Of a stretch of 43,907 nucleotides of DNA, positions 21,117 through 28,049 are shown piece by piece. Where the stretch lies: assembly GCF_018678075.1 (NCBI RefSeq), contig NZ_JAHHIR010000021.1, forward strand, positions 1-43,907, given 5' to 3'. The stretch's first letter is position 1. Each line of letters opens with the position of its first letter. The notes beneath the pieces are model-generated. The model was not told the DNA's origin. It was given only the letters and a program-made list of their open reading frames with translations, and ran no database searches. The translations under genes and the position numbers were made by a program. The DNA is from Epibacterium ulvae (GTDB lineage: Bacteria; Pseudomonadota; Alphaproteobacteria; Rhodobacterales; Rhodobacteraceae).

Positions 21117-21497
21117 CGAACCGCGGCAGGCAGTACCGCTCGCACGACTACCAAAAGATCCTGCAACAGCACGGGTTCCCAGCGTCGATGAGCGACAAAG
21201 GAGAATGTTACGAGTTTAAGCTGGTCCGCGCCAGCGGATTGGATGATCCGGGGGGATCATTCAAAGGCGCAAAACTCTGCTGTCGAGACCTTATTCAAGA
21301 CCATCAAAGCCGAGCTGATCTGGCGAGGTCATGGGAAACACGGTGGCAGGCTGAGATGGCCATCTTCGAATGCATCAACGGCTTCTACAATCCGCGACGC
21401 CGACACTCAGCATTGGGCTGGAAAAGCCCCGTCGTTTTCGAACGGAAAGTGGTTCAAACGAGCACTTGGGGCGGCACTAAAACGCGACAGGTCCAGT
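21117..21497 (+). pseudogene. IS3-family transposase (OrfB) remnant, interrupted and frameshifted
   Basis: Translation shows the last third of an IS3-type DDE integrase: NRGRQYRSHDYQKILQQHGF, then SMSDKGECY, SAVETLFKTIKAELIWR, and after a frame change RSWETRWQAEMAIFE and FYNPRRRHSALGWKSPVVF. Two lesions are visible: about 60 foreign bases (21213-21272) split the CYDNSAVET motif, and one base is lost near 21326 within the WRQSW region. The 5' two thirds are gone, joined directly to the DUF6505-like gene. A likely right terminal repeat (GGCGGCACTAAAACGCGACA, then GGTCCA) ends near 21497. Not functional. Confidence 0.85.
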
Positions 21498-21675
21498 TGG
21501 GCCAAGCGCCGCGCTGTCACGCAGGTGGCGCGGGCTCGCACCTCCGCACTGTCGTCCAAAGATCAGCCCGCGCCGGGCCAAGGCCCAGCGCTATGCCCAA
21601 CTGCTCGCTGCAATCTATTGATTGCGCACAGAGTGGGCGGGAGACCCACGTCGACCGTCACACGCTACAGAACGA
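21498..21675. other. Unassigned stretch between IS3 remnant and tupA
   Basis: 178 bases with several open frames but no ribosome site. One plus-strand frame ends AKAQRYAQLLAAIY and a stop, which looks like the C-terminal tail of some protein, perhaps from another mobile element. It must also hold the 3' end of the tupBCA transcript; I see no clear terminator hairpin. Confidence 0.4.
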
Positions 21676-22479
21676 TTAGCGTTTGGCGTTGAACACAAAG
21701 AGCGTCTCACCATTGATCTGGTAGTCGTCGATCAGACCTTTGGCTTTGTCTGAAATCAACCAATTTTCCAACTGGTCTACCAAGCTGGTTTTGACATGAC
21801 TGTGTCGCTCGGCATTCACCGGAACATAGGCGTATTGATTGAACAAATCCGGATCGCCAGCGTATAGCAAAGCCAGATCCCCTGTGTTCCCGAAATTCAG
21901 CCAGCTTGCACGATCCGCCATGATGTACGCATCCAAAGCCGCCGCCGTATTCAGCGCCGCTCCCATGCCTGCACCCACGGCGCGGTACCATCTGCCAAAG
22001 CGTTCGGGGTCCAGCCCGGCATCCTCCCACAGGCTCAACTCTTTCTTATGTGTGCCACTGTCGTCACCTCGGCTGACAAACACGGCTTCCGCATTGGCAA
22101 TCTTGCTCAATGCGTCCTGAGCGTTTTGTGCGGTCTTCACCCCAGCTACGTCCGTTTTGGGACCGACAAAGACAAAATCATTGTACATGATCTCACGACG
22201 GTGGGTTCCATGACCGCTGGCGAGGAAACTCACCTCAGCCGCTCGAGAATGCACCAGAATGGCATCCACATCGCCGGCCTCTCCCAATCGGATGGCCTGC
22301 CCGGTGCCCACCACCAAAAGCTGCACCTCAAACCCAAGGTCGCGCTTGATCTCGGGCAAAAGGATCTCAGCCAGGCCAGAATTGTGGAACGACGTTGTGA
22401 CCGCCAGTTTCATCGCCTCGGCCCAAGCAGGCGTATGCAGCGTGAGCGCGACGACTACGCTCAAAAGCAAATGTTTCAT
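21676..22479 (-). CDS. tupA: Tungstate ABC transporter, periplasmic binding protein
   Basis: 267 residues with a signal peptide (ends HTPAWA). The mature protein has the TupA features: TTSFHNSGL near the N-terminus, VVGTGQAIRLGEAGDVDAIL, VHSRAAE and IMYNDFVFVGP, then FVSRGDDSGTHKKE. These residues bind the oxyanion in characterised TupA proteins, which prefer tungstate strongly over molybdate. The start overlaps the tupC stop (ATGA). It is the third gene of the tupB-tupC-tupA run. Tungsten in this organism would most plausibly serve the adjacent formate dehydrogenase. Confidence 0.9.
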   Translation of the reverse strand: MKHLLLSVVVALTLHTPAWAEAMKLAVTTSFHNSGLAEILLPEIKRDLGFEVQLLVVGTGQAIRLGEAGDVDAILVHSRAAEVSFLASGHGTHRREIMYNDFVFVGPKTDVAGVKTAQNAQDALSKIANAEAVFVSRGDDSGTHKKELSLWEDAGLDPERFGRWYRAVGAGMGAALNTAAALDAYIMADRASWLNFGNTGDLALLYAGDPDLFNQYAYVPVNAERHSHVKTSLVDQLENWLISDKAKGLIDDYQINGETLFVFNAKR

Positions 22480-24088: not shown

Positions 24089-25633
24089 TCATTCAAACCA
24101 CTTGGCCCAGCCATCCAGGTAATAGCTAACAAGGGCATGGGACTGCAGGCGGTTGACCTCAACCTCGACCGGGCCGGTGTCTTTGGAGAACGCTCTCGCC
24201 TGCTCCCAGACCTCATCCGACAGGAACCGCAAGCCCGCTGGCCAATCCAACGCACGTTGCGCCGGTTCATACGGCGCGGCCAGCACGAACCCCCATTCGC
24301 CAAAACTCGGCACATAGGCATGATAGGGCAAGGTCCACAAACCGCTGCCGACTTTGACCGGATTGCGAGCAGCCTCCAGCGTCGCGGCCACCGACCAAAA
24401 TGCCTCGCGCGCATAAAAGGGCGATCCGGCCTGCGTCGCAAGCAATCCTTGCGGGCTCAACCGTTCCAGCAGAAGATTATAAAACGCGCGACTGTAGAGT
24501 TTGGAGAGCGCCAGGTTCTTTGGATCCGGCAGATCGATCAGGATTACATCGTATTGCGCGGTGCTGTGCTCGACAAATTGCCAGGCATCTTGGTTTTCAA
24601 TTGTTACACGTGGATCACGCAAGGCATTGCCGTTCAAGGCGGCCAAATCATCGTGGGTTTGAAAGATCTCTGTGACGCGCGGATCCAGATCCACCAGCGT
24701 GATCTGTTCGACGTCTGGCCAGCGCAGCACCTCACGCGCGGCCATACCATCGCCACCGCCCAGGATCAGAATATCCGCACGCCGACTGGCCTGTGCCATG
24801 GCCGGATGCACCAGCATTTCGTGGTAGCGATACTCGTCGAAACTATCGAATTGGATGGAGTGATCCAGAAACAGCCGCGTGCGGTCGCGAAATCGGGTCA
24901 CGGTGATCTGCTGATAGGGTGTCGTCTCGCTCAGGATGATGTCGTCCTCATAGAGCGCGGCTTCGGCCACGGTCACCAGACGTTCGGACTGCACCAGCCC
25001 AGCGCCGGTTAGGATCAGCGCAAATGCCCAGACCCCCCATTGGCTGCGCTGCGCATCTGCACGAAACATCCACAACGACAGACCGGCCACACATAGGTTC
25101 AACCCGCCAAAGACCAGGCTGGCCGACATAAGCCCCAGCTGTGGCACGATCAACAGCGGAAAAGCCACCGAGGCCGCCAGCGCACCCACATAATCCACAC
25201 TGAGGACGTTTTCAAAGCGGAACTCGGGCACACCGATTTCCTTGAGAACCCGCGCGATCAAGGGGATCTCCATGCCCGACAAAATGCCCACGGCGATCAA
25301 CAGGCCAAACAGCGGCAGCTCCACCGCGCCGGTCCAGGCGTAGGCAAAAAACACCACCGGTGCGAGGAACCCGCCCAGAATACCCAGCAGGATCTGCGCC
25401 CAGATAAACCCGCCCAACGCCTGGCCGACAAAGCGGGACAGGTAGGCACCAACCCCCATCGCCGACAGAAAAACCCCGATCACCAAGGAGAACTGGCGTA
25501 CGCTGTCGCCCAACAGGTAGCTCGAAAGCGTCGCTGCGATCAGTTCGTAAATAAGCCCGGCCACCGCCACCAGAAAGGTTGCGATCAACAGCCAGACTTC
25601 ACGCGTGCGCGCGCCCAATGGCGCGTCGCTCAT
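24089..25633 (-). CDS. speE: Membrane-anchored polyamine aminopropyltransferase (spermidine synthase family)
   Basis: 514 residues. The first 215 form about seven membrane helices (for example LLIATFLVAVAGLIYELIAA). The soluble C-terminal domain is a spermidine-synthase fold: QQITVTRFRDRTRLFLDHSI, then QFDSFDEYRYHEMLVHPAMA, the nucleotide-binding GGGDG (292-296), VDLDPRV and the catalytic-site IDLPDPKN. Such enzymes transfer aminopropyl from decarboxylated SAM to an amine; the membrane fusion suggests a membrane-associated acceptor or export. No SAM decarboxylase is in the window. Its start overlaps the DUF350 gene stop (ATGA), ending a five-gene run. The same pairing with DUF350 and DUF4178 is, as I recall, found in mycobacteria (Rv2597-Rv2601). 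Confidence 0.88.
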   Translation of the reverse strand: MSDAPLGARTREVWLLIATFLVAVAGLIYELIAATLSSYLLGDSVRQFSLVIGVFLSAMGVGAYLSRFVGQALGGFIWAQILLGILGGFLAPVVFFAYAWTGAVELPLFGLLIAVGILSGMEIPLIARVLKEIGVPEFRFENVLSVDYVGALAASVAFPLLIVPQLGLMSASLVFGGLNLCVAGLSLWMFRADAQRSQWGVWAFALILTGAGLVQSERLVTVAEAALYEDDIILSETTPYQQITVTRFRDRTRLFLDHSIQFDSFDEYRYHEMLVHPAMAQASRRADILILGGGDGMAAREVLRWPDVEQITLVDLDPRVTEIFQTHDDLAALNGNALRDPRVTIENQDAWQFVEHSTAQYDVILIDLPDPKNLALSKLYSRAFYNLLLERLSPQGLLATQAGSPFYAREAFWSVAATLEAARNPVKVGSGLWTLPYHAYVPSFGEWGFVLAAPYEPAQRALDWPAGLRFLSDEVWEQARAFSKDTGPVEVEVNRLQSHALVSYYLDGWAKWFE

Positions 25634-25854
25634 GACAGGATCACGGCCGCGATAATGATGGAAATCGACACGAACAGCAGCCCGATCAGAATGGCGAGCG
25701 CGACGTTCTGGTCTTTTTCAATCTCTTTCAGGATCGGAAAGGGCGTCATCCAGTCAATCACCTTCCAGACCATAAACATCAGCACCACGCCGATGAGGGT
25801 GTAAAAGAACGTGCTGACGACCTCAGCCAGTTGGATCGCGGAAAATAGGTCCAT
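25630..25854 (-). CDS. DUF350 small membrane protein
   Basis: 74 residues, two membrane helices (about 12-33 and 50-72) joined by an acidic/basic loop containing DWMTPFPILKEIEKDQN. The second helix is VALAILIGLLFVSISIIIAA. The charged FPILKEIEKDQNVALAI pattern is characteristic of DUF350 (the YjfL family of E. coli), whose function is unknown. It lies 11 bases after the 52-residue gene and overlaps the aminopropyltransferase start by ATGA. Confidence 0.85.
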   Translation of the reverse strand: MDLFSAIQLAEVVSTFFYTLIGVVLMFMVWKVIDWMTPFPILKEIEKDQNVALAILIGLLFVSISIIIAAVILS

Positions 25855-25865
25855 AAGGTCCCCCG

Positions 25866-26024
25866 TTATTTGACGTTGCCACCGAAACCGCGACCACCGC
25901 TGGCGGCCCGGATCGAGTTTGAGATATCCCGGCTTTCACCGCCAATCCCGTTGTAAGAAAGGTAACTGGCCCCGGCGACGATGGCGCAGGACATGACCAG
26001 AAAAATGATGCGAAACAGGTTCAT
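25866..26024 (-). CDS. 52-residue single-pass membrane peptide in the DUF350 operon
   Basis: MNLFRIIFLVMSCAIVAGAS forms one membrane helix or uncleaved signal anchor; the rest is a short exported-looking tail, polar and Gly-rich (ending GGRGFGGNVK). The ATG follows three bases after the stop of the large DUF4178 gene, and its own stop is 11 bases before the DUF350 start, so the spacing fits a genuine operon member. There is a Cys at position 13 but no convincing lipobox. I do not recognise a family. Confidence 0.72.
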   Translation of the reverse strand: MNLFRIIFLVMSCAIVAGASYLSYNGIGGESRDISNSIRAASGGRGFGGNVK

Positions 26025-26027
26025 GGC

Positions 26028-27326
26028 TTAATCGTCATCCTCATCCACCCAATCGCTGCCACGCCAGCGCGCCGCATTATGTCGACGTGCGCGCAACCAC
26101 GGCAAGCCCGCCATCAGACCAAAGACAACGGTGGCAAAGATCATCCACCGGATCACTTTGCGCCCCGCATCGACCGAGACGGAGAGTTGGTTCCATTGGT
26201 TGGGTCGCGCCGCGCCGGATGCGGTCCAGTCGCCCTCGGCGTCGACATCGATGAAAAGCGTGTAGTCGCCATCCAAAGGTGCGCGGAATGTGGCATTGGC
26301 GCGGTTGCTGCCCTCGCTCCAATTCCCGTCAGCGTCGCGTCCCGCATATCGTTCAACCGCGCGCACCGTGCTGAACAGCACTTCGTCTTCCGGGTCGTTC
26401 ACTTCCAGTTCCAGCTCGGACCAGGTGTTGATGCCATTGCCCGCCAGACGCAATTGCACCAGCTCGCCGGCTGTGATCCCCTCTAGCACCTGTTCAAAGG
26501 GCAGATCTGCGCGCGACAGTGAGACCCGACCTAGGACATCGCGGCCAGACTGGCCTGCGAATAACCCGGCCAAGATCAGACATAGAACCGCAAAAATCGC
26601 GCTTGCCTTGATCTGGAACCCCGCATTGGGTCCTGCGTTGAAGGGCTGCAGCGGATGCACCCGCGCGGGGGAGAAACCGGGATCCATACCAAAACCCTGC
26701 TTCACCTCATCCGCGCTCAGATAGGTGGTCTGCTCAACCTCACGTTCGCGACCTGTGGCGGAAAAGGACAGCATCCGTGTCTCCCCTAGGACCGAAACGG
26801 TTGAGGTCTTGTCCGATTTGCGCGGCTGCCACGAGAACTCCCCCTCGGCATAGCGGATCTCACTGGTGCTGGTCTCATAGTATTTGAACTGCTCGCCCTT
26901 GTCGCGCAGAGTTGGACGGTGGTTGGCCCGCGCGACCCGGTGTTCGGACATCCACAAGGGTCTGCGATAGCGACGGGTGAAGGTGCAATGCCCTTCCTCC
27001 AAGGTTAGCCAGGCGTAGCCATGTGTCGGCGAATAGAGCTGATGGTCGAGCCAGCCGTAGGTCTTGCCACCCCAATGTTCGACCTGTTCCAGCAGACCGA
27101 TCACCGTGTAGTCGACACCCTGGATCGTACCAGCTGTGCCAATGGGAAAGGGCGTTTTCGGGCGGGGCACGTCATTGAAACGCTTCAACGCGCGGTAATT
27201 CGCGGTCGCGTCCAGTTCCGTGCCGCAATAGGGGCAGATATGCGTGGTGACCCGGCCACCGCCCAAGACATCCAAGCCCGCGCCGCATGAGGTGCAGTTG
27301 ATCGCATTGACAGAGGTCAAGGTCAT
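26028..27326 (-). CDS. DUF4178 protein with zinc ribbon and two membrane helices
   Basis: 432 residues. An N-terminal zinc ribbon (CTSCG at about 12-16, CPYCG at about 32-36) precedes a DUF4178 domain (about 60-200; for example PIGTAGTIQGVDYTVIGLL and WLDHQLYSPTHGYAWL). Then come TM1 (about 245-263), an exported beta-rich region of about 120 residues (SELELEVNDPEDEVLFS, GDYTLFIDVDAEGDW) and TM2 (about 388-408) with a basic/acidic tail. The cysteine ribbon and DUF4178 should be cytoplasmic. Its start overlaps the stop of the smaller DUF4178 gene (ATGA). Function unknown; it may be a membrane scaffold for the other products of the run. Confidence 0.83.
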   Translation of the reverse strand: MTLTSVNAINCTSCGAGLDVLGGGRVTTHICPYCGTELDATANYRALKRFNDVPRPKTPFPIGTAGTIQGVDYTVIGLLEQVEHWGGKTYGWLDHQLYSPTHGYAWLTLEEGHCTFTRRYRRPLWMSEHRVARANHRPTLRDKGEQFKYYETSTSEIRYAEGEFSWQPRKSDKTSTVSVLGETRMLSFSATGREREVEQTTYLSADEVKQGFGMDPGFSPARVHPLQPFNAGPNAGFQIKASAIFAVLCLILAGLFAGQSGRDVLGRVSLSRADLPFEQVLEGITAGELVQLRLAGNGINTWSELELEVNDPEDEVLFSTVRAVERYAGRDADGNWSEGSNRANATFRAPLDGDYTLFIDVDAEGDWTASGAARPNQWNQLSVSVDAGRKVIRWMIFATVVFGLMAGLPWLRARRHNAARWRGSDWVDEDDD

Positions 27327-27940
27327 GACAGCACCTCAACCTCAAACGGGTCAAACCAGCGGCCGACAAACCAGGCGTATTGATCGCCGTCGATTTCGGC
27401 CGAGAGCAGATCGCCATTTTCGCCCTGCAAGTTCACATAACGATAGATTTCCCCCACATACAGCGGCTCATCAAAACTGCCGCGCAGGGCGATACATTCC
27501 CCTTTGCCGTCTTCGACCACCCGGTAGCCGCCGCCATCATATGAAATCACCTTGCCGAGTTTCAGATAGCCATCGTAGCGCGGCCATTTTGCGCGGCGGA
27601 CCTCTTCCTGCAGGATGATGTCGCCCTCATCCACGGAAATCCAGAGCGGCGCGCCCGCGCTGTTCAAGGCGCAAAACTCATCCCATGTCCCACGCCCATA
27701 GGAAAACCGCGCGTGGCCTACGATGTTATAGGTGTCACGGCCCATCCGCAGATGACTGCCCAACCCAAAAAGCATCGGCACATCATGCATCGCCCCCTGT
27801 TCGCCCGCCTGTTCGGCAGCCTGATCCGATAGGAAAAGAGACGTCCCGCAGGAGCTGCAGGTCACCATCTTGACGGTCTGAAAGGCGGGTGCGACGGAGC
27901 TGCCGCAATTGGGACACTGAAAATCGTGCATTTGATTCAT
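27323..27940 (-). CDS. DUF4178 protein with N-terminal zinc ribbon, soluble
   Basis: 205 residues from ATG 27940. Zinc ribbon CPNCG ... CSSCG in the first 40 residues, then a DUF4178 domain (GSHLRMGRDTYNIVGHARFS, FCALNSAGAPLWISVDEGD). No membrane segment. It shares architecture with the front part of the next gene, suggesting an ancient duplication. GTG 27958 is an alternative start that has a better-spaced AAGGCGAG, and ATG 27931 is also possible. First gene of the five-gene run; its promoter lies in 27941-28338, divergent from zwf. Confidence 0.8.
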   Translation of the reverse strand: MNQMHDFQCPNCGSSVAPAFQTVKMVTCSSCGTSLFLSDQAAEQAGEQGAMHDVPMLFGLGSHLRMGRDTYNIVGHARFSYGRGTWDEFCALNSAGAPLWISVDEGDIILQEEVRRAKWPRYDGYLKLGKVISYDGGGYRVVEDGKGECIALRGSFDEPLYVGEIYRYVNLQGENGDLLSAEIDGDQYAWFVGRWFDPFEVEVLS

Positions 27941-28049
27941 AAATCTCTGTTGCTTCACACATAAACACTCGCCTTATGAAAACAAAGCACAACTGCGCCC
28001 CCGAACCACCAAAGCGTTGCACAAGCACCGCGCGCCACACGCGCAACGC

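Follow-up and report, generated by a model that had tools for sequence, protein, structure and literature searches.

A class of bacterial operons that join PspA and CesT/Tir-type proteins to a seven-transmembrane (7TM) spermine synthase, DUF350, DUF4178 and a lipoprotein is described in passages of Ravi et al. 2024 (PMC11237479), where Li et al. 2019 are cited for 'aminopropylation of other substrates'. A second kind of system, represented by the E. coli clusters yjfIJKLMC and ygiBC, involves peptide-spermidine ligases (Pederick et al. 2023, Biochemistry). The fungal enzyme NHMT is presented, in sections of its report (PMC10349129), as a 7TM protein with a spermidine synthase (SpdSyn)-like domain that acts as an N-terminal histidine methyltransferase on secreted proteins. 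Here we analyse five genes of Epibacterium ulvae, all on the minus strand, at positions 24089-27940 of a 43,907-nucleotide stretch (contig NZ_JAHHIR010000021.1; the whole stretch is hereafter called the window), exactly where the original prediction had located them. Many bacteria make decarboxylated S-adenosylmethionine (dcAdoMet) together with a membrane aminopropyltransferase whose product is not known, and no role is known for either DUF350 or DUF4178. For MFS-SpdSyn fusions linked to S-adenosylmethionine (AdoMet) decarboxylase, Li et al. (Biochem J, 2019) reportedly proposed an acceptor other than putrescine, naming none. We lean, by a modest measure, to the view that the 7TM enzyme aminopropylates the C-terminal Lys of its own membrane-anchored tail, which in the window would be a 52-residue peptide encoded within the run. 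The Lys-tipped tail as proposed acceptor is the new element of this analysis; no such proposal was found in the portion of the open-access literature covered, outside which most subscription papers lie.

Every one of the 121 tails counted, from 48 discovery, 67 named-genome and six plasmid loci, ends in Lys, as do all 73 that are left after removal of tails more than 60% alike. For the named-genome loci the rule by which tails were found was blind to the last residue, taking either the end of DUF4178 or a small transmembrane open reading frame (ORF) after it, with a looser blind rule for nine loci; the rule for the small peptides of the discovery loci was blind as well. For comparison, six-frame translation of the named set gives 8,471 ORFs, 3.8% of which have Lys last, and chance ORFs in other frames at the position of the peptide, not ending in Lys, also occur (for example in L136, L148, L153, L154, L163, L166 and L184). 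A Gly/Ser-rich end is found in 40 of the 634 called genes, with Lys as the last residue in 31 of the 40. At positions -2 to -25 of the tails, Lys accounts for 1.2% of residues and Arg for 10.3%; Arg is never last. Position -2 is occupied by His (62 tails), Gly (47), Val (10) or Ile (2). Gly and Ser together make up a median of 45% of the last 20 residues and at least 30% in 102 of the 121 tails, the lowest value being 10%.

The carrier of the tail varies, being a small membrane peptide, a lipoprotein or the C-terminus of DUF4178. Within the discovery loci, small transmembrane peptides following DUF4178 end in Lys, all 15 called members of the lipoprotein cluster found in PspA-type operons do the same, and the DUF4178 proteins of six loci that have no separate peptide themselves end in Lys. 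All 48 discovery loci have a tail, two of them on another contig; one genome with the enzyme (G223) was left out of the locus set with its enzyme at a contig edge, and another (G401) contributes two loci. In G111 and G116 no tail is present at the enzyme locus because the enzyme stands apart from its partners, and the tail was found beside DUF350 on another contig, as predicted. For the named genomes, 13 of 80 loci were set aside with no DUF4178 in reach (L179, L203, L206, L212-L215, L217-L221 and L237; in L203, DUF350 lies at the extreme edge of its stretch). The other 67 all have a Lys end, which is fused to DUF4178 in 34 (chiefly Burkholderiales) and separate in 33. The plasmid sample comprises 15 records with at least 80% of the enzyme at one place, from which six intact loci were taken, with the fragment L264 in addition; a Lys-ended tail accompanies the intact enzyme in 6/6. 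The fragment, L264 6001-6708 from a Rhodovulum plasmid, is a lone SpeE catalytic-domain piece of a 7TM-SpeE relative, with neither module nor tail.

Sister tails end differently. In E. coli, yjfL-yjfM-yjfC and ygiB-ygiC each encode a tail protein beside an enzyme with the annotation 'peptide--spermidine ligase', and both YjfM and YgiB have Gly-Gly ends. Near-full-length relatives of YjfM keep the Gly-Gly end in 37 of 52 cases; in the other 15 the end is unrelated, seemingly through a change of frame or a merger. Where the genome lacks a 7TM enzyme, the tail next to DUF350 or its ligase ends in Gly in all four loci at hand (L271, L272, L276 and L277). The last residue thus appears to follow the type of enzyme, Lys with the aminopropyltransferase and Gly with the ligase. 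Such a match would be expected from the chemistry, since a ligase requires a carboxyl group, available at a Gly end, and an aminopropyltransferase requires an amine, available in Lys. Six further loci with DUF350 genes (L265-L270) have no tail protein that we recognised, nor has L273, from a genome 76% complete, and two SpeD regions from genomes with the enzyme (L274 and L275) contain no module families. L265 does contain, some 1.8 kb away from DUF350, an ORF of 78 residues with a Ser-rich end and Lys last, which we attribute to chance. Two DUF350 operons without a 7TM enzyme (L271 5223-9717 and L272 2841-5733) encode a Ser-rich tail ending ..SSSGFIG. Their neighbours without a Pfam match, of 358 and 354 aa in the two loci and of 465 aa in L271, perhaps represent a third enzyme type for such tails.

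The features of the run in the window are as follows.

27323..27940, minus strand: zinc-ribbon DUF4178 protein, 205 aa from ATG (PF13785, 65.7 bits)
26028..27326, minus strand: zinc-ribbon DUF4178 protein, 432 aa (PF13785, 53.2 bits)
25866..26024, minus strand: 52-aa single-helix membrane peptide with a Gly/Ser-rich tail ending ...GGNVK, the proposed acceptor
25869..25871, minus strand: C-terminal Lys codon AAA, the proposed aminopropylation site (from the sequence; C-terminal Lys in 121/121 tails)
25630..25854, minus strand: short DUF350 two-helix membrane protein, 74 aa (PF03994, 47.4 bits)
24089..25633, minus strand: 7TM-aminopropyltransferase, 514 aa (residues 1-216 membrane; about 221-492 aminopropyltransferase domain)

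The Pfam cut-offs are 25 bits for DUF4178, 26 for DUF350 and 22.9 for Spermine_synth. The two DUF4178 proteins, the DUF350 protein and the spermidine-synthase domain with about seven helices were all correctly recognised in the original prediction. Its account of the gene junctions was right as to tight spacing and needs amending as to the count: in place of three ATGA overlaps or gaps of 3-11 bases, the successive junctions are -4, +3, +11 and -4, that is, two ATGA-type overlaps and two gaps.

The enzyme scores 631.8 bits against NF002956 (7TM polyamine aminopropyltransferase; curated cut-off 472) over residues 9-512 and 116.9 bits against Pfam Spermine_synth, and it falls below the cut-off of the ordinary SpeE equivalog TIGR00417 (129.5 vs 249.55 bits). 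Across 51 sequences of the 7TM enzyme, GGGDG and the catalytic DxPDP are invariant, and YQ is also kept; judged by these residues, its site is of the aminopropyltransferase type. An NHMT-like methyltransferase was considered and is disfavoured, the acidic residue of GGGDG being retained. Hydropathy and an AlphaFold2 model (mean pLDDT 91) agree on seven membrane helices, and charged residues E122, R128 and D147, in or beside the membrane segments, are invariant. Charge bias would place the catalytic domain in the periplasm, where most of the tails are predicted to lie as well. In a same-genus genome without the module, a 67-aa ORF (G016:C58:118754-118903) matches the end portion of the enzyme over 50 residues and is a possible remnant of a lost module.

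The small peptide has no match in Pfam or NCBIfam, and a protein search with it alone returns four matches, that of the window included. It is nevertheless conserved in 5/5 same-genus relatives with the module, at 40-96% identity, with synonymous changes exceeding replacement changes in three of the four relatives compared and a third-position excess in all four. By this pattern the peptide is under purifying selection and behaves as a gene, as the first reading had taken it to be; a chance ORF is ruled out by the conservation and the excess of silent changes.

The module is not confined to close relatives. The 7TM enzyme is found above cut-off in 42 of 378 Pseudomonadota genomes, and DUF4178 (PF13785) in 24 of those 42 vs none of the 336 without the enzyme (Fisher p 6e-27). 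The remaining 18 genomes are counted as lacking DUF4178 because PF13785 misses the DUF4178-like protein of L143, the one PspA-type operon scanned. In the genome of the window and 60 relatives, PF13785 occurs in exactly the seven genomes that have a near-full-length match to the 7TM enzyme; an eighth (G038), whose 7TM enzyme is divergent and belongs to a PspA-type operon, gives no match to PF13785. Distribution in the genus is patchy (6/18 genomes). The gene set recurs in Pseudomonadota, Acidobacteriota, Gemmatimonadota, one myxobacterium and Leptospiraceae, and a survey of conserved neighbourhoods, which had been named as the place where a restriction to close relatives would count against a functional module, thus finds it across several phyla. 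Partners are exchangeable in the 48 discovery loci: Band-7/SHOCT occurs in 9, PspA in 20, CesT/Tir-type families in 14 and 4, SpeD in 10 and a flavin oxidoreductase in 8, these being lower bounds drawn from called genes. In 6/8 of the flavin oxidoreductases a twin arginine lies close to the N-terminus and was interpreted by eye as a Tat leader, and Novosphingobium L261 has a PF01593 flavin amine-oxidase-like protein. An Alteromonas plasmid presents the enzyme followed by SpeD, TelA, DUF4178, lipoprotein and DUF350. In this locus (L263 5941-12599, Alteromonas mediterranea) TelA, a toxic anion resistance protein, stands at the place of PspA or Band-7 elsewhere, and the lipoprotein ends in ..GPSSGK. 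A class-III aminotransferase gene lies upstream of the module in three genomes of one family (L146 1711-3081, L147 and L150; Pfam match in L146).

Genes for supply of the donor mostly accompany the enzyme. Of the 42 enzyme-bearing genomes, 31 have PF02675 AdoMet decarboxylase vs 63 of the 336 without the enzyme (p 1e-12), and the class-2 family PF01536, searched in the 42 enzyme genomes only, adds eight, for 39/42. Among the 61 close genomes, the 25 with SpeD are the same 25 that have a SpeE, soluble or 7TM; G026 and G060, with weaker SpeE-like matches, have no SpeD. The absence of an AdoMet decarboxylase noted earlier holds within the window and does not extend to the genome, which encodes SpeD on another contig (G000:C60:12467-12775; L001 and L091) and has no match to soluble SpeE. 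A 7TM enzyme without donor is accordingly rejected. The same genome has an operon (L095) of speA, a carboxynorspermidine-synthase-like gene, an nspC-like gene and agmatinase. Its arginine decarboxylase and agmatinase are above curated cut-offs, and the synthase (393.5 of 800 bits) and the nspC-like decarboxylase (395.5 of 409.05) are below theirs. These genes point to a carboxyspermidine-type route. A full-length nspC-like match is found in five of the six genomes that have the 7TM enzyme and lack soluble SpeE (the exception, G038, is 81% complete) and in one of 19 with soluble SpeE (G013). Given the lack of soluble SpeE and the presence of the L095 genes, the 7TM enzyme seems to be the only one that SpeD can supply, and free spermidine in this genome is probably independent of SpeD. 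This fits the suggestion of the original prediction that an aminopropyl group goes to a membrane-linked target and not to free spermidine; that the small peptide is the likely target had gone unseen. A grouping of the SpeD of this genome with operon-linked SpeDs is unsupported. It falls, at the end of a long branch, within the soluble-SpeE-linked SpeDs of the family, and looks inherited and kept after loss of the soluble SpeE. The long branch of this orphan would suit fast change following the loss of its partner.

In the mechanism that we propose, SpeD, encoded elsewhere in the genome, would provide dcAdoMet, with which the 7TM enzyme would aminopropylate, once or several times, the C-terminal Lys of the peptide at its side-chain amine. 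The side chain of Lys resembles putrescine, which normally serves as acceptor, in being an amine with four carbons. DUF350 and zinc-ribbon DUF4178, the latter sometimes fused to the tail, may hold, present or sense it. What results would be a flexible arm, anchored in the membrane and tipped with a polyamine, that lies at the outer face of the inner membrane and acts at the membrane or envelope surface, and in some lineages a flavin amine-oxidase-like protein may act on the tail. More tentatively, and with the balance just short of even, a polyamine tip on tail Lys may be a widespread modification of the bacterial envelope, a counterpart of the silaffin type that in several lineages is perhaps oxidised to a reactive aldehyde by the amine-oxidase-like protein of the same operon, with DUF350 marking 'polyamine-tipped tail' machines in general, including those with ligases, which would arrive at a similar tail through different chemistry.

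Several points weigh against aminopropylation of the tail. The tails are not uniformly rich in Gly and Ser (19/121 fall below 30%, with a minimum of 10%), and in L145 the tail would be cytoplasmic if, as hydropathy suggests, it is preceded by two helices. Periplasmic placement of the catalytic domain depends on charge bias only, there is no known route that would bring dcAdoMet to the periplasm, and no AdoMet decarboxylase was recognised in G096 (99% complete), G116 (100%) or G228 (71%). The Lys pattern was first noticed on the discovery loci and then tested on the others, and the tails for the count of 121 were extracted with markers taken from earlier outputs. Lastly, anchoring to peptidoglycan would use Lys-terminated tails just as well. 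In Braun's lipoprotein (Lpp) the bond to peptidoglycan is made to the C-terminal Lys. A tail attached in this manner by L,D-transpeptidases, with the enzyme acting elsewhere or tuning attachment, would match the Lpp design of a flexible periplasmic arm ending in Lys, and attachment of Lpp by LD-transpeptidases is documented in published abstracts. Such an anchor gives no reason why a Lys tail should accompany a 7TM enzyme, or why Gly-Gly tails should stand beside peptide-spermidine ligases, and we regard it as quite improbable.

That the enzyme is an ordinary membrane-bound spermidine synthase, which its neighbours only localise, would agree with the name of its NCBIfam family, polyamine aminopropyltransferase, and with the retained catalytic residues. 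The carboxyspermidine-type route genes in the same genome speak against it, as does the additional presence of soluble SpeE in two of six same-genus genomes with the module (G003 and G005), and such a fusion is said by Li et al. (2019) to have failed to complement an E. coli speE deletion. We consider this explanation very improbable, and disfavour ordinary spermidine supply as the main role on account of those route genes. Just as improbable is polyamine export or import, with the 7TM domain as transporter and the SpeE domain as sensor or loading enzyme: the invariant E122, R128 and D147 and the words of Ravi et al. 2024, who in the relevant passage call the 7TM domain transporter-like (PMC11237479), would suit it, and the Lys tails are left unexplained. 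A different acceptor, whether a lipid, a small amine such as spermidine or another metabolite of unknown nature, with the Lys tail as a sensor of or dock for the product or an anionic lipid, is unlikely and yet to be taken seriously. Ravi et al. 2024 suggest polyamine sensing or aminopropylation of other substrates in the same passages (PMC11237479). Moreover, the nearest matches to the catalytic domain are enzymes of the triamine/agmatine and thermospermine types (the rows of the structure alignment cover the catalytic domain only), and the motif PSFG is common to the 7TM enzyme and the Pyrobaculum enzyme in the alignment shown. Nevertheless, a polycation sensor would hardly need an invariant terminal Lys that is never replaced by Arg, and the switch from Lys to Gly with enzyme type would go unexplained. 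Aminopropylation of the tail would, if true, reduce the matter to a single mass-spectrometry experiment, with a shift of 57.06 Da (57.058) per aminopropyl group on the C-terminal peptide. It would also mean that bacteria have a lysine polyamine modification of the envelope, link polyamine chemistry to the PspA, Band-7 and TelA envelope systems, and explain why SpeD is kept by organisms with another spermidine route.

As to the remaining genes, both DUF4178 proteins of the window contain CxxC...CxxC zinc ribbons, and the four cysteines are invariant in an alignment of 23 rows of the long one. The first gene has an alternative GTG start at 27958, giving 211 aa, and occurs in the same order in 5/5 same-genus relatives bearing the module (48-81% identity). 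The 432-aa protein has, by hydropathy, two membrane helices that flank a domain, and its C-terminus is acidic; where relatives encode the Lys peptide separately, an acidic stretch nearly always forms the C-terminus of the long protein. Upstream of the module, and divergent from it, are zwf and edd. Downstream, the module ends 198 bases before genes of the TupA/TupB (tungstate) ABC-transporter type, which score below equivalog cut-offs. Between these transporter-like genes and a DUF6505 gene, positions 21188-21679 contain a remnant with a sub-threshold match to rve_2 (integrase core; 18.1 bits, cut-off 22).

Like the class of Ravi et al. 2024, the window unites a 7TM-aminopropyltransferase with DUF350 and DUF4178, the combination by which that class is defined, and the operon described there is similar to the lipoprotein type, of which L143 is one of our examples; a C-terminal Lys is not mentioned in the passages on this class (PMC11237479). 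The window differs in lacking PspA, CesT/Tir and lipoprotein, having instead two zinc-ribbon DUF4178 proteins and a tiny peptide. No CesT/Tir-PspA pair lies between the TupA/TupB-like genes and zwf, and no lipoprotein is encoded in the operon, where the 52-aa membrane peptide takes its place, both types of carrier ending in Lys. The Li et al. fusions reportedly share the enzyme family, DUF350 and a link to AdoMet decarboxylase, to which the Lys tail would add a concrete candidate for the acceptor. The yjf operon has DUF350, PspA-family and DUF2170 proteins, and yjf and ygiBC both place a tail protein beside a polyamine enzyme; no DUF350 is annotated near ygiBC in the stretch examined. Unlike the window, these systems use an ATP-grasp ligase in place of an aminopropyltransferase and Gly-Gly tails in place of Lys, and no ATP-grasp ligase or DUF1190 partner is found by Pfam among the five products of the window. 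Extension of a Lys side-chain amine by groups of the aminopropyl or aminobutyl type is familiar from the polyamine chains of diatom silaffins and from hypusine. Those are eukaryotic and on other carriers, and the likeness drawn here concerns the modification. NHMT, according to the sections consulted (PMC10349129), is a methyltransferase in which the acidic residue of GxG(D/E)G, retained in the bacterial family, is absent, and its 7TM sequence is termed unique to filamentous fungi. The same sections show that it shares with the enzyme of the window the order of seven helices followed by a SpdSyn-like domain and has a terminal residue as its target, which provides a precedent for a 7TM enzyme acting on a terminal residue of a protein.

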